Below are positions 18,943-26,217 of a DNA stretch of 27,273 nt, in pieces (the first letter of the stretch is position 1; the number at the start of each line of letters is the position of its first letter). Source of the stretch: a virus; the IMG/VR virus record IMGVR_UViG_3300009508_001598, positions 1 through 27,273 of that record, one strand, 5' to 3'. Below the pieces are notes generated by a model that was not told where the DNA came from, did not search any database, and saw only the letters and a list, made by a program, of their open reading frames with translations. Both the position numbers and the translations under genes were made by a program.

Positions 18943-19548
18943 TCATAATAAAAAGTGATTCTTGACATAGTCAGAGAATCGCTTTGGTTCAAAATCAAGG
19001 AAGGGTTTATACTTTCTTGATTTTCTTATTATATCAGAAGCTACGAACTTGTCAACCACTTTCTCGTCCCAATACGTAAATATTTTCGCCAGATGAGCTA
19101 ATATCGTAAATGTCTCTAACGATATCTTCTTCTGTAAGAATAGTGTCATAATGTAGGGGTGTTGTCCTTCATGTGATATAAAGTTCTCCCTGTAGTCCTC
19201 ATTGAGCGACTTCAGGTCGGATTGGAATAGATACCCGAGTGATTCAATTCTCTTGAGCCATTCGGTATAGATACGAGCCCCTTCAGGCTCTACTATATCT
19301 CTAATCCAAGTGTCTGGTTTCACCAAAAGGTTTGCCAGTAAAACGTTCTGCCAGTCGGGATGTTTTGTCAACTTCCGAAAGTAGAATGTATCATTGCGCG
19401 TTCGAAACGTCTCGTAAGACGCCTTGACTTTGCCATTATATTTATGAAAATCGTATTGATCTGTCGTAAAATGTTTTTTAAGAGCGAGATATCTGATATA
19501 CGCAGAATACGCTTCTTCATTAGCATATGTCGGTGATATCGGCTTCAT
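18943..19548 (-). CDS. 59: Helicase loader gp59
   Basis: 201 aa. This protein binds fork DNA and gp32 and loads the gp41 helicase. YDFHKYNGKVKASYETFRTR followed by DTFYFRKLTKH aligns with the T4 gp59 N-terminal HMG-like domain, and ISLETFTILAHLAKIF matches the T4 C-terminal ISFETFILLDSFLNII. The order gp33-gp59-gp32 is the T4 order, which supports the call. The start overlaps the gp33-like gene by 29 nt and has only a weak ribosome site, so translation is probably coupled. Length is close to T4 gp59 (217 aa). Confidence 0.92.
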   Translation of the reverse strand: MKPISPTYANEEAYSAYIRYLALKKHFTTDQYDFHKYNGKVKASYETFRTRNDTFYFRKLTKHPDWQNVLLANLLVKPDTWIRDIVEPEGARIYTEWLKRIESLGYLFQSDLKSLNEDYRENFISHEGQHPYIMTLFLQKKISLETFTILAHLAKIFTYWDEKVVDKFVASDIIRKSRKYKPFLDFEPKRFSDYVKNHFLL

Positions 19549-19777
19549 CTTTTTGTACCATACGTAATTTAACCGCCTCTGTTCTAAGCTTTTCTTTTAG
19601 AATAGAAGATTTTTTTACCACGTCGGCTACTGATTCGATCTCCAAGTTATTTCTTTCTGCATACTCGCACAGAGCATCAATATAAGGAACACCATTTGAT
19701 ATCATATTAGATATCGCGTGATGTATTTTTTCGGGCGTCATTGCTACTACCATATTATAGGGATCCTCGTCGGTCAT
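19520..19777 (-). CDS. 33: Late transcription coactivator gp33-like
   Basis: 85 aa. In T4, gp33 bridges host RNA polymerase and the gp45 clamp for late transcription. The segment NGVPYIDALCEYAERNNLEIE matches the T4 and cyanophage gp33 core, in which a helix ending in YxEA/D is followed by ENxxE and a C-terminal helix. The position directly before gp59 is conserved. ATG 19777 has AGGA eight bases upstream. However, the strong promoter behind it would start transcription at about 19786 and leave only ~9 nt of leader, so ATG 19741 (MTPEKIHHAI) is a real alternative start. No obvious gp45-binding tail was identified. Confidence 0.82.
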   Translation of the reverse strand: MTDEDPYNMVVAMTPEKIHHAISNMISNGVPYIDALCEYAERNNLEIESVADVVKKSSILKEKLRTEAVKLRMVQKDEADITDIC

Positions 19778-22079: not shown

Positions 22080-22703
22080 TTAATAGTCATCATTGTAATC
22101 CGACTGTTCGTAATCGGGGTCTATGAAACTTGTGATTTCATCATACCCGTCGCCTCCCTTCCAATCATCCATCAATTCGTAAAAGAGGCGCTCGGCAAAC
22201 CCAAAGCATTTTCTTGCTTCGTCTACCATGTCATCATGTAATAATGCTCGAATCCCAGCAATAAGATTCGTGCGATTCTCGAACTCATACATCGTTCCAG
22301 AACCTGGTGTCTTTTTCTTAATGATTTGACCTCCATGCATGTCACCAAAGTGTCTGACATATACATGTGCGAGAAGAGAATCATTATCACCCTTCTCGTC
22401 TAAACTGCTAATGTGTAGAATATACTCACCAACCGATGGGTAAGTATCTTCTATTTCTTCTAACCTATGCAGATCTTCGAGCTCTTGGAGATCTTCCATT
22501 ATGGCATTTGCTCTAAAAACATTTTCTAAATCAGAAGGCAATTTTACTGCTGTTTCTAGGACCCCATATATTATCATTTGTGCATAGAGATACTTCTGAT
22601 AAAGTCTAGGATGAATATCACCACTTATAAGCAGTTCTGCAAACTCGGTCCTCTCAGCATTCTGATGGTGTTCCCAAGTTAGTTCCTTCAAATTATTTGC
22701 CAT
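22080..22703 (-). CDS. ho1: Heme oxygenase (HO-1 type)
   Basis: 207 aa. It opens the heme ring using O2 and reduced ferredoxin to give biliverdin, iron and CO. LKELTWEHHQNAERTEF (5-21) carries the proximal heme ligand, most likely H13 (cf. T-K-E-x-H-x-x-A-E). YVRHFGDMHGGQIIKKK (115-131) is the distal helix signature, where most enzymes have GDLSGGQ, so Leu-Ser is Met-His here. The protein is slightly shorter than cyanobacterial HO1 and ends in an Asp/Tyr-rich tail. GAGG lies seven bases before ATG 22703. It has both an early-type and a late-type promoter upstream and leads the bilin reductase unit. Iron release for the host or phage is the alternative purpose if no bilin is needed. Confidence 0.94.
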   Translation of the reverse strand: MANNLKELTWEHHQNAERTEFAELLISGDIHPRLYQKYLYAQMIIYGVLETAVKLPSDLENVFRANAIMEDLQELEDLHRLEEIEDTYPSVGEYILHISSLDEKGDNDSLLAHVYVRHFGDMHGGQIIKKKTPGSGTMYEFENRTNLIAGIRALLHDDMVDEARKCFGFAERLFYELMDDWKGGDGYDEITSFIDPDYEQSDYNDDY

Positions 22704-22772: not shown

Positions 22773-22780
22773 TATTTATA
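22773..22780 (-). promoter_or_regulatory. T4-type late promoter toward heme oxygenase
   Basis: TATTTATA on the plus strand is a perfect TATAAATA on the minus strand. It lies ~70 nt before the heme oxygenase ATG, behind the early promoter, and shares four bases with the opposite late box. If used, the pigment genes would be expressed late as well as early. Confidence 0.6.
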
Positions 22781-22784
22781 AATA
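22777..22784 (+). promoter_or_regulatory. T4-type late promoter toward the lipase operon
   Basis: A perfect TATAAATA on the plus strand. The start would be near 22790, so an ATG at 22789 cannot be used, and translation would begin at ATG 22819 with GCGGAG six bases upstream. It is the only promoter seen for the plus-strand island. Confidence 0.82.
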
Positions 22785-22818: not shown

Positions 22819-23601
22819 ATGAAAAAAGTTACGCAGTATAGTCATGAAGATATTCTTGAGTCGCACAGACACGCGGTAATGGCCCAAACAGCCTACCTAG
22901 ACGGTAAGGAAGCAAAGCCACATTTCAAATCATTAGGTTGGACAGGTCATAAATTCATCGATATCGATGGTGCTCAATGCCATGTTGTCTGGAATAAGAA
23001 AGAAGTTGCAATTGCCTTTAGGGGCACAGAACCTTCGGAATTCACTGATATCCTTGCTGATTTAAATGCGTGGCCAGATGAACCCTTAATCGGACACGGG
23101 AAAGTACATAATGGCTTTCAAAACGAATTAGAAAAATTATGGGTTGATGTCACTAAAGCAGTGACACCACATCTAGGCAAAAAATTGACTCTCTGCGGAC
23201 ATTCTCTAGGTGGTGCAATGGCCACGGTTGCAGCTAGTCGTTTCTCTATGGATATCAGCATCGATTGCCTCTTTACATATGGGTCACCCCGAACAGGTAC
23301 TGCTGATTTCGTCAAGGCGTTTGCTCAAGTTAAACACTTCCGATTTGTAAATAACAATGACATCGTTCCTACAGTGCCCCTGGCTCTGATGGGGTATCGT
23401 CATCATTGTCCGCCAATGTACATCGATTTCAATGGACACATTCATGGCAACCTATCTTGGGGTGCAAGAATGCGAGATAAATTGAAAGGTCGTTGGGCTG
23501 CATTGAAGAAGGGTCAACCATTTGACAATTTCTTCGATCATAGTTCAGCATATTATTCCCAATATACAGGAGAAGAAGCTGATGTTAGCGGAAATGTTTA
23601 G
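22819..23601 (+). CDS. Class 3 lipase-like alpha/beta hydrolase
   Basis: 260 aa from ATG 22819. The fold signatures of fungal-type class 3 lipases are clear: VAIAFRGT (63-70, oxyanion hole), VHNGFQNEL, LTLCGHSLGGAMATV (123-137, nucleophile Ser129), FTYGSPRTG (152-160), FRFVNNNDIVPTVP (174-187, Asp181) and DHSSAYY (240-246, His241). The catalytic triad therefore appears complete. No signal peptide or membrane segment is present, so the enzyme is made in the cytosol or packed in virions. It leads a late operon of small membrane proteins. Attack on host membrane lipids at lysis is an attractive guess; a virion-borne or storage-lipid role is also possible. Confidence 0.88.
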   Translation: MKKVTQYSHEDILESHRHAVMAQTAYLDGKEAKPHFKSLGWTGHKFIDIDGAQCHVVWNKKEVAIAFRGTEPSEFTDILADLNAWPDEPLIGHGKVHNGFQNELEKLWVDVTKAVTPHLGKKLTLCGHSLGGAMATVAASRFSMDISIDCLFTYGSPRTGTADFVKAFAQVKHFRFVNNNDIVPTVPLALMGYRHHCPPMYIDFNGHIHGNLSWGARMRDKLKGRWAALKKGQPFDNFFDHSSAYYSQYTGEEADVSGNV

Positions 23602-23887
23602 TGATACATTATGGATCTACACAGCAATAGCAGGATCATTACTTGGTGCTGGATTCTTATTTTGGTTTAAAGACACTCGGATGGCCACATGGGCTGTTGC
23701 GAAATTCGATGGGCTGCTTGAACACTTAGCAGTTCGATGGGGTTGGACTTGGTTGCAGAATGATCCAGAGGCTTGGCGAAAGAAATATCCAAGAATCACT
23801 GGCAAGATTGATGAATTAGAAGCGCGCCTTGCAAAACTTGAAAAGGTTGAGTGGGACCAATATAAAGAGAAAAAATCAAAAAAATGA
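23582..23887 (+). CDS. Small membrane-anchored protein
   Basis: 101 aa from ATG 23582, with AGGAGA eight bases upstream inside the lipase end; the two genes overlap by 20 nt. One hydrophobic helix (WIYTAIAGSLLGAGFLFWF, ~11-29) is followed by an amphipathic Trp-rich stretch (LAVRWGWTWLQ), then a charged helix (IDELEARLAKLEKVEW) to a Lys-rich end. The predicted layout is a short outside N-terminus with a large cytosolic coiled coil. No family recognised. It could be a holin-like or anchoring partner in this operon. Confidence 0.75.
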   Translation: MLAEMFSDTLWIYTAIAGSLLGAGFLFWFKDTRMATWAVAKFDGLLEHLAVRWGWTWLQNDPEAWRKKYPRITGKIDELEARLAKLEKVEWDQYKEKKSKK

Positions 23888-24093
23888 GACGTTCGACTAG
23901 TCATGTAAAACCAATAACGATAGAGAAATATTTGTCGTATATTGATGTGCGAATGGAACAGCTGACAGAAGAGGCTGCCAAGTGTAACAGTCAATATGAT
24001 AGGCTTTGGTACAACAAAGTAATAAGTGAACTACATTGGGCTAAACTAGGTTCCGAAAATTGTTTTATGGAACCAGAAGACATTAAGGAGTAA
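23884..24093 (+). CDS. Small soluble protein of unknown function
   Basis: 69 aa, MRRSTSHVKPITIEKYLSYI, mostly helical with two Cys and no membrane span. ATG 23884 overlaps the previous stop as ATGA, supporting translational coupling. The C-terminus is acidic (MEPEDIKE). The helix YLSYIDVRMEQLTEEAAKCN could form a dimeric coiled coil. I do not recognise the family. Confidence 0.68.
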   Translation: MRRSTSHVKPITIEKYLSYIDVRMEQLTEEAAKCNSQYDRLWYNKVISELHWAKLGSENCFMEPEDIKE

Positions 24094-24096
24094 CTT

Positions 24097-24258
24097 ATGG
24101 GTTATATTAAAGAAATCTTAACTGAAAGAACATCACTTGACGGAGCAGTATTGATCGGCATTTGTGGTGCAATTATATTATTAGGAGGAGTTGTAAAGTT
24201 AGTAGCATGGGGTGGTTTACTCTATGGTGCGTATACGTTGTTAAAGAAGGAGAAGTAA
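24097..24258 (+). CDS. Short membrane protein, conserved in marine T4-like phages
   Basis: 53 aa, starting MGYIKEILTERTSLDGAV. AAGGAG lies six bases before ATG 24097, partly within the previous gene end. One long hydrophobic region (LIGICGAIILLGGVVKLVAW, then GGLLYGAYTLL) could make one or two spans. Its MGYIKEILTERTSLDG start is familiar to me from other marine myoviruses. It lies one base before the EF-hand protein start. The function is unknown; a holin subunit is possible. Confidence 0.72.
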   Translation: MGYIKEILTERTSLDGAVLIGICGAIILLGGVVKLVAWGGLLYGAYTLLKKEK

Positions 24259-24259
24259 A

Positions 24260-24598
24260 ATGGCCGGAAAGAAAAAGGTACAAGTAGACGAGCATTTAGC
24301 AGCTGCCGATAAAAATGGCGATGGCCACATCTCTATGGAAGAAATCGAAGAGCATATGAATCTTGAGTTCAAACGAAAAGAACTCGAAGACAAAGATGCG
24401 CAACGTGATGCTATTCGTAAGATGGCATGGTTCTCATTGATAGGTCTTTTACTCTATCCCTTTGGTATTTTCCTTACGGATTTCTTCGGATTAGAGAATG
24501 CTGCAAAATTGACTGCTGATATTGCACCAACATATTTTGCTTCAATAGCAGTTTTGGTTTCTGCCTTCTTTGCTGCGGATGCTGTAGGTAAAAAGTAA
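24260..24598 (+). CDS. EF-hand protein with two membrane spans
   Basis: 112 aa. Residues 17-28 (DKNGDGHISMEE) are a canonical 12-residue EF-hand calcium loop with acidic or polar ligands at 1, 3, 5, 9 and 12. A charged helix (FKRKELEDKDAQRDAIRK) follows, then two hydrophobic segments (~54-75 and ~88-108). A single EF-hand ahead of two membrane spans suits a calcium-responsive membrane protein or a dimer. Two spans also fit a class II holin. AAGGAG lies eight bases before the ATG. Similar proteins occur in marine T4-like phages, in my recollection; none is characterised as far as I know. Confidence 0.78.
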   Translation: MAGKKKVQVDEHLAAADKNGDGHISMEEIEEHMNLEFKRKELEDKDAQRDAIRKMAWFSLIGLLLYPFGIFLTDFFGLENAAKLTADIAPTYFASIAVLVSAFFAADAVGKK

Positions 24599-24921
24599 TG
24601 TCAGATTTTGATATTGATGAAAACTCTAATGTGACAATACCAATACGCAATCTTCTAGCTATGATTTTTGCTACTGGTATTATCGTTATGGGATATTTTG
24701 AATTGACTGAACGAATTACAATGCTAGAACGTGATCTACATTTGGCAGAGTCTTATGTTGAGCAGAATAGTGAATTCAGAACCAATTGGGAGCCACCACC
24801 CGAGGTACAAGAAACTGTAAGATTGTCACATAGACACGACATACGTTTAGAGTACATCGAGAAGAAATTGGCTCAATTAGAATCCGAAATGGATAAGGCT
24901 TTAGAAGAACAGATAAAGTAA
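24598..24921 (+). CDS. Membrane-anchored coiled-coil protein
   Basis: 107 aa. A short acidic start (MSDFDIDENSNVTIPIRN) precedes one membrane helix (LLAMIFATGIIVMGYF, ~19-34), then a long helix ending in an acidic coiled coil (IEKKLAQLESEMDKALEEQ). The start shares a base with the previous stop (TAATG). The layout, an inner-membrane anchor with a long coiled coil, is like an i-spanin, although no matching outer-membrane lipoprotein is seen on this strand. It is the last gene of the plus-strand operon and meets the minus operon seven bases later. A weak GAGG/CCTC hairpin at 24923-24935 is the only terminator candidate. Confidence 0.75.
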   Translation: MSDFDIDENSNVTIPIRNLLAMIFATGIIVMGYFELTERITMLERDLHLAESYVEQNSEFRTNWEPPPEVQETVRLSHRHDIRLEYIEKKLAQLESEMDKALEEQIK

Positions 24922-24927
24922 TGAGGA

Positions 24928-25077
24928 TTAACCTCTTCGTTCCTTTATCTTTCTTCGAATCTTGCTTGCAAAGACTTTTGTCTCATCCCATAGATCTATG
25001 GCAATATCCTGAAGATCTTTTACATTACCCACAAAGAATCCCAGAGCAAACCCAATAACTAAACAGAATAATTCCAT
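24928..25077 (-). CDS. Tiny membrane-anchored basic protein
   Basis: 49 aa: a hydrophobic start (MELFCLVIGFALGFFVGNVK) followed by a charged helix ending in a basic tail (KIRRKIKERRG). AGAAGG lies eight bases before ATG 25077, and the gene begins two bases after the previous stop, at the end of the minus operon. No family recognised. The topology should place the basic tail in the cytosol. Confidence 0.58.
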   Translation of the reverse strand: MELFCLVIGFALGFFVGNVKDLQDIAIDLWDETKVFASKIRRKIKERRG

Positions 25078-25641: not shown

Positions 25642-25769
25642 GTGTTATCTCCATCGCAGTACATAAGATCAGATTTGTTAAATTTTACTTTTTCTTTTGT
25701 ATCCAAAAGTGGATATACACTCCCTACAATACCTACTATTAGAAACCAAACCATAATTAAAACTTCCAT
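25638..25769 (-). CDS. Tiny membrane protein linking two operon genes
   Basis: 43 aa: one N-terminal hydrophobic helix (MEVLIMVWFLIVGIVGSVYP) then a polar tail. ATG 25769 shares a base with the upstream stop (TAATG) and the TGA overlaps the next start (ATGA). Being coupled on both sides is the main evidence. The ribosome site is weak. The function is unknown. Confidence 0.6.
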   Translation of the reverse strand: MEVLIMVWFLIVGIVGSVYPLLDTKEKVKFNKSDLMYCDGDNT

Positions 25770-26194
25770 TATCTGTTCTTATCGAATTGTTCTGTGAAGG
25801 TGACGCCTTCGTGTGTGAAGGTAACTGTCGAGTGGCTATAGACCTCTCGTTCTTCTCGTCTGTACTTTGTTGTTACTGTACAAAAGGTACGATAATGAGG
25901 TCGTGCTTTTGATTTATCGTGTCCAATTGCTCCACCAATCACAGCACCAGCAACAGTTGCTTCAGTATCTTTCCCGATTGCATTGCCGATTGCAGCACCT
26001 ATGATTGCCCCACCTAGAGTAGATCCTGTCTTGTCTCCACCGACCAGACGATCTTCACACTCTTCAACAGTGTAGGGTTTTCTTATAACTACTGTTTTAT
26101 ATCGATCCTTTACTACAGGGCCTGAACCAGCAGTAGATTGCGCCACAATGACCGTAAAGAAAAGAGCTGCAGCTCCTATAATAAGTTTTTTCAT
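25769..26194 (-). CDS. Exported glycine-zipper protein
   Basis: 141 aa from ATG 26194 (AAGGAG five bases upstream); a GTG two codons earlier lies too close to that site. Residues 1-24 are a signal peptide (MKKLIIGAAALFFTVIVAQS, then A-G-S cleavage region). There is no lipobox Cys. The centre (TGSTLGGAIIGAAIGNAIG and TVAGAVIGGAIGHDKSKARP) is the glycine-zipper two-helix domain of the Rickettsia 17-kDa antigen type, found in envelope proteins. Two Cys (ECEDR, FCTVTT) flank it and may pair in the periplasm. It leads a sigma70-driven operon, so it probably alters the host envelope early, for example in superinfection exclusion. That role is inferred. Confidence 0.82.
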   Translation of the reverse strand: MKKLIIGAAALFFTVIVAQSTAGSGPVVKDRYKTVVIRKPYTVEECEDRLVGGDKTGSTLGGAIIGAAIGNAIGKDTEATVAGAVIGGAIGHDKSKARPHYRTFCTVTTKYRREEREVYSHSTVTFTHEGVTFTEQFDKNR

Positions 26195-26217
26195 TTCCAC
26201 TCCTTAATAGACATACC

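Follow-up and report, generated by a model that had tools for sequence, protein, structure and literature searches.

A late-type operon headed by a lipase gene

The stretch of DNA analysed here, referred to as the window, is 27,273 bases long and comes from an IMG/VR virus record. Judged from its predicted genes, it is a fragment of an uncultured T4-like marine myovirus, since it encodes UvsX, a gp41-type helicase, gp32, gp59 and a gp33-type late coactivator (19520-19777; PF16805, E=2e-12), all on the minus strand. That strand holds all evident genes of the window other than a run of six plus-strand genes (22819-24921), encoding a class 3 lipase and five small proteins, B to F. Membrane spans were predicted in four of the five (B, D, E and F), and C appears soluble. 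An earlier reading of this DNA, made from the letters alone (hereafter, the sequence-only reading), had given the coordinates, the count of membrane proteins and the orientation opposite to everything else correctly. Its description of the genes as all overlapping is nearly right: the spacing from the lipase to F is -20, -4, +3, +1 and -1 nt, so that three junctions overlap (by 20, 4 and 1 nt) and two have short gaps (3 and 1 nt). Relatives keep the same gene block.

A T4-type late promoter, TATAAATA, was found upstream of the lipase gene (22777..22784, plus strand) as an exact match to the motif. Among dereplicated relatives with a strand switch, TATAAATR was present within 100 bases upstream of the lipase in 21 of 26 (1.3 expected from shuffles); where the lipase lies inside a co-directional run, it was present in 2 of 40 (1.0 expected). 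The claim of a perfect late promoter is thus borne out by the exact motif, its excess over chance in strand-switch relatives and the gp33 coactivator encoded in the window, and the conserved motif together with the gp33 gene predicts late expression of the operon.

The operon is flanked on its 5' side by a divergent heme oxygenase gene (22080-22703, minus strand; PF01126, E=7e-19), which is preceded on the minus strand by a sigma-70-like TTGACA-17-TAAGAT; TATAAATA can also be read on the minus strand, in the same AT-rich stretch upstream of this gene. Heme oxygenase is kept beside the lipase operon in dozens of relatives, and in some of them (L110, L113) it is co-directional and downstream of lipase-B-D. 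At the 3' end, a terminator-like hairpin (24905..24955, plus strand; -18.7 kcal/mol, z=-4.6) lies between convergent genes; a consensus terminator scan did not pick it up because it has no T-run. The convergent gene directly after the operon (24928-25077, minus strand), below the ORF cut-off, encodes a small one-TM protein of about 49 aa (MELFCLVIGFALGFFVG...). A secreted glycine-zipper 2TM protein, conserved near the operon, is encoded further on (25769-26200, minus strand; PF05433, E=1e-6).

The lipase

The first gene (22819..23601, plus strand) encodes a 260-aa class 3 lipase (PF01764, E=4e-22; 79 bits against a curated cutoff of 22). The motif GHSLGG places Ser129, and the triad S129-D181-H241 was invariant across 42 diverse sequences. 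No N-terminal signal peptide was visible by eye, in agreement with the sequence-only reading of a complete-triad class 3 lipase lacking an export signal. The AlphaFold model (pLDDT 85) shows the alpha/beta fold of fungal lipases, and Foldseek searches against the PDB returned fungal lipases, feruloyl esterase A and plant phospholipase A1 (probability 1.00, TM 0.5-0.7), enzymes to which sequence comparison likewise relates the protein. The LysB/cutinase family was absent from its Pfam and PHROG matches, and the best folds were class 3 lipases.

A cationic amphipathic helix was modelled at about residues 205-235, before the catalytic His. In 60 dereplicated lipase homologues this segment spans 29-35 residues with a median net charge of +6, which suggests an affinity of the predicted enzyme for anionic membranes. 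The helix was considered as a mark of lysis-linked lipases only, and this was rejected: it is also present in the lone lipases of two relatives (G007, G008), so that it indicates membrane affinity at most.

The small proteins

Protein B (23582..23887, plus strand), with one predicted TM, an amphipathic helix and a coiled-coil tail, is a candidate holin or holin partner. It has no Pfam or PHROG family. In relatives it shows an invariant core and constant gene company, adjoining either the lipase or GH19-Rz-Rz1, and it is single-copy in 17 of the 25 large records. Its structural model was of low confidence (pLDDT 72, pTM 0.29). From its sequence features and neighbourhood, B could be a holin, an antiholin or a membrane partner of the lipase.

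Protein C (23884..24093, plus strand), small and soluble, is also without a Pfam or PHROG family and occupies a variable slot, filled in relatives by an IscA-like protein, a methyltransferase or others. The IscA-like Fe-S gene was found inside the operon at about 29 loci. Protein D (24097..24258, plus strand) is a holin-like hydrophobic membrane protein of 53 aa, with one TM or a tight hairpin; it adjoins a lysozyme and Rz in two relatives (L102, L207) and GH19 in another (L055). Neither B nor D had any match among isolated phages.

Protein E (24260..24598, plus strand), a candidate holin, combines an N-terminal EF-hand-like loop (EF-hand_5, E=5e-5, just under the cutoff) with two TMs. B, D and E resemble holins in size, spans and neighbourhood, and none of them matched a holin family in Pfam or PHROG. 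Protein F (24598..24921, plus strand) has an i-spanin-like topology: a short cytoplasmic N-terminus, one TM and a coiled coil. It matches only phrog_20984 (E=1e-9), and the Rz of relatives belongs to a different family (isp9). In pelagiphages, F homologues often follow an M15 peptidase or a lysozyme plus a holin-like gene; among 80 F loci, about 22 had an endolysin and about 40 a pelagiphage-type holin-like gene nearby. No protein with an o-spanin lipobox was found among the six operon proteins; in the syntenic relative G004, a lipoprotein o-spanin is encoded at another locus. For B, D, E and F no characterised homologue was found.

Association with lysis genes in relatives

The lipase family was confirmed in at least 547 and the B family in at least 577 stretches in IMG/VR, and about 250 loci were compared for gene order. 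Five arrangements were distinguished. The first is GH19 endolysin - Rz - Rz1 - (CHAP lipoprotein) - B - E or h34 - DnaJ - ClpA, with PHROG matches for the endolysin (7e-74) and for two Rz-like spanins (5e-6 and 5e-9). The second, to which the window belongs, is lipase - B - (IscA-like or other) - D - E, mostly with a divergent heme oxygenase. In the third, lipase - B - D is followed by GH19 (L055, L083, L101). In the fourth, the lipase and B accompany spanin genes, either as Rz - lipase - B (L015-L018) or as lipase - B - Rz - Rz1 (L059, L098, L106). The fifth is T4-type lysozyme - (D) - Rz - B - E, with the lipase last and in the same direction in two loci (L207, L191); the lysozyme was recognised as PF00959 in the L102 homologue. 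A GH19 or spanin gene lay within five genes of B on the same strand in 42 of 102 dereplicated B loci, and B was present at 59 of 68 dereplicated lipase loci; because the counted loci share ancestry, the five distinct arrangements weigh more than these totals.

Many GH19 cassettes also carry, between Rz1 and B, a gene for a CHAP/NlpC-type domain protein that is predicted to be a lipoprotein from its lipobox-like ..SAC/SCA (L058:1593-2111, L067:9444-9962, L129:2427-2936); this putative peptidoglycan hydrolase may be anchored in the outer membrane and take part in lysis. A tail-anchored coiled coil after Rz1 in G004 was considered for its likeness to XhlA, and this was dropped as it had no Pfam or PHROG match.

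In the GH19-Rz-Rz1 cassettes, where E follows B, the membrane proteins left unaccounted for are B and either E or h34. The slot after B and before DnaJ held E in 17 dereplicated loci, h34 in 15 and both in none. The protein h34 (L092:10269-10634; phrog_10198) also has two TMs, and its homologues occur in 358 phage records, mostly of Vibrio phages; the KVP40 homologue follows the Rz-like spanin genes at a distance of about 3 kb. Although both proteins end in a similar-looking segment, E and h34 were not accepted as one family (profile comparison probability 5-7%). Two unrelated 2-TM proteins swapping at one slot of a lysis cassette suggest a holin-type function for both, and h34 is put forward as a candidate holin family.

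Isolated phages place E in two kinds of company. In the roseophages CRP-810 and CRP-345, an E homologue (about 40% identical) directly adjoins lysis genes, namely a GTA_holin_3TM holin with a GH108 hydrolase, and a spanin2-family protein with an endolysin. Since CRP-810 has another holin beside E, the latter could be a partner instead of a holin. In HTVC008M and Melnitz, E lies between gp51 and the tape measure gene, away from their lysis genes (L021:8001-8333, L022:7962-8291); here it is possibly an unannotated holin of phages whose lysis is poorly understood. E adjoins gp51 in 13 dereplicated contigs. None of the neighbour genes listed was found at 64 of 129 E loci, and many E loci have no lysis gene nearby. 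A 106 kb contig with a close E (G006) has an Rz/Rz1 pair, and no lipase, B, GH19 or T4 lysozyme was recognised in it. The 'lysozyme' before E in CRP-207 was not counted as a lysis link because the protein looks like a membrane coiled coil: gp73 (L023:3292-3873), annotated as 'putative lysozyme', has an N-terminal TM and a coiled coil, like the cc8 family found upstream of many lipase operons, and its label is probably a misannotation.

Endolysins in lipase-bearing phages

The sequence-only reading had the lipase standing in for a visible peptidoglycan-degrading enzyme. No peptidoglycan hydrolase was found among the six operon proteins (Pfam, PHROG), nor any endolysin in the 27 kb window or on the 25-34 kb contigs of the closest relatives, as would be expected if the phage lysed its host by cleaving lipids and had no peptidoglycan hydrolase of its own. 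In addition, the lipase and B occupy the usual endolysin position in L015-L018 and in L059/L098, where no hydrolase was recognised on what are fragmentary contigs. Against this stand the longer records. The lipase is present in 16 of the 25 large or close records searched, and seven larger lipase-bearing contigs encode a separate endolysin, either GH19 (G001, G003, G005, G008) or a T4-type lysozyme apart from the lipase (G002, G004, G017). The endolysin is followed by Rz in G001-G005 and G017, and by Rz1 too in G002, G004 and G017, and in these six contigs the cassette lies at least 20 kb from the lipase. At five further loci (L207, L191, L055, L083, L101), a single gene run holds both an endolysin and the lipase. 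The idea that the lipase replaces the endolysin was accordingly rejected and is regarded as very improbable.

Among the relatives on long contigs, G004 is the closest that shares synteny with the window (lipase 53% identical). Its gene order is that of the window, with a UvsX/gp32/gp59/gp33/heme oxygenase block leading into lipase-B-IscA-D-E, and a lysozyme-Rz-Rz1 cassette lies about 23 kb from the lipase. The sequence-only reading had named two signs that would speak against it, a standard holin-endolysin-spanin set at another place in the genome and no toxicity from the operon; an endolysin-spanin set of this kind is present in G004. Since the contigs of the closest relatives (82-92% lipase identity) are 34 kb or less, an endolysin of the window's own lineage is expected, not seen; that of the window phage is either outside the fragment or absent. 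The presence of Rz/Rz1 in cassettes of this T4-like phage group makes the host presumably Gram-negative.

Comparison with known systems

The nearest functional parallel is LysB of the mycobacteriophages Ms6 and D29, deletion of which delays lysis and lowers the burst (PMC6116114). Like the operon lipase, LysB is a serine lipolytic enzyme with G-x-S-x-G; its gene has holin-like neighbours within a lysis cassette, and the enzyme acts on top of an endolysin. A lipolytic enzyme in one run with an endolysin was found in the five loci named above, not in the window. LysB differs in being cutinase-like and in cutting the mycolyl-arabinogalactan link, whereas the operon enzyme is a class 3 (fungal-type) lipase of a T4-like phage. 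The latter is not a member of the LysB family; by analogy, it would play a LysB-like role as a lipolytic lysis accessory, with another enzyme family acting on another envelope.

With the canonical holin-endolysin-Rz/Rz1 cassette, the operon shares a late promoter and small overlapping membrane-protein genes, and relatives have runs that include endolysin and Rz/Rz1. It departs from that cassette in that it is headed by a lipase, the window holds neither an endolysin nor a lipoprotein o-spanin, and G004 keeps its endolysin and spanins at another locus. CRP-810 and CRP-345 share with it a homologous EF-hand 2-TM protein directly beside lysis genes, but they are phages of a different type, lack the lipase, B and D, and have E next to another holin. 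The lipase of P-SSM2 (PSSM2_200), likewise a class 3 enzyme from a marine phage of the T4-like kind, shows about 37% identity across half its length; in contrast to the operon enzyme, it is shorter, lacks the cationic helix and stands alone beside a tRNA ligase gene, with no B, D, E or F.

A proposed split lysis system and the alternatives

The late lysis-type operon of the sequence-only reading is well supported in that B, D, E, F and the lipase each adjoin endolysin, Rz/Rz1 spanin or holin genes in other phages; given these neighbourhoods, holin-like (E/D/B) and spanin-like (F) are fair putative labels. The late promoter, the operon structure, the intact lipase active site, the four membrane proteins and the repeated linkage to endolysins and spanins in relatives make it reasonably likely that the lysis system of this T4-like marine phage is split and that the operon supplies one half of it, the membrane proteins plus the lipase, the latter as a LysB-like accessory. 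The lipase would probably contribute to opening the host envelope together with a wall-cutting enzyme and not as a substitute for it. In the mechanism proposed, B, D and/or E would produce an inner-membrane lesion as a holin, possibly with an antiholin partner, and the EF-hand loop of E might respond to Ca2+ once the membrane leaks; F would be i-spanin-like or a structural coiled coil. The cytoplasmic lipase, kept near the membrane by its cationic helix, would be freed or triggered at lysis time and hydrolyse lipids, either those of the inner membrane or those in the outer membrane's inner leaflet. The envelope would then rupture sooner, with the usual tasks still carried out by a separate endolysin and by Rz/Rz1.

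Several observations weigh against such a split system. The lipase lacks B or lies far from lysis genes in some relatives (G002, G007, G008, G017, P-SSM2), many E loci, such as those of HTVC008M and Melnitz, are without a nearby lysis gene, and metabolic genes such as the IscA-like one also enter the operon. The main rival is auxiliary lipid metabolism, in which, at a late stage of infection, the lipase would break down or remodel lipids of the host to yield fatty acids or energy, the operon being a loose collection of late genes with mixed functions. A class 3 lipase without an export signal would suit this role, as would the lone lipases beside ligase or nucleotidyltransferase genes (G007, G008, P-SSM2), the IscA-like, methyltransferase and nuclease genes in the operon of relatives, and the adjoining heme oxygenase. 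The tight pairing of the lipase with B, the several different gene orders that link the operon to endolysins and spanins, and a promoter that is late, not early, make this explanation rather unlikely. A virion-borne lipase, or one located in the envelope of the host, that acts at entry or in superinfection exclusion would be consistent with late expression, with envelope binding by the cationic helix and with the distant lipoprotein-lipase-like protein contained in virions of the cyanophage S-CREM1 (PMC9964418). The window lineage shows no linkage to tail or capsid genes, its linkage being to lysis genes, and no defence-type family was matched (PADLOC), so that this role appears improbable. 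A defence or toxin system was dismissed on the same zero PADLOC matches.

Implications

Lysis of Gram-negative hosts is explained by the holin, the endolysin and the spanin (or disruptin). A literature search that covered a minority of the subscription journals turned up no publication linking a class 3 lipase to lysis by phages. More broadly, it is conceivable, if somewhat doubtful, that the lipase family serves T4-like phages of marine Gram-negative bacteria as a lipolytic factor dedicated to lysis, partnered with B, forming a further class beside those three and widespread in the sea. The unannotated B-E pair offers a marker of lysis loci in these viruses, and for B, D, E and F, all of them widespread families without an assigned function, the associations described offer a first lead to what they may do. 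If the proposal is true, an enzymatic anti-lipid step would be added to Gram-negative lysis in very common marine T4-like phages, as LysB adds one in mycobacteria, and it would affect which lipids viral lysis releases to the sea.
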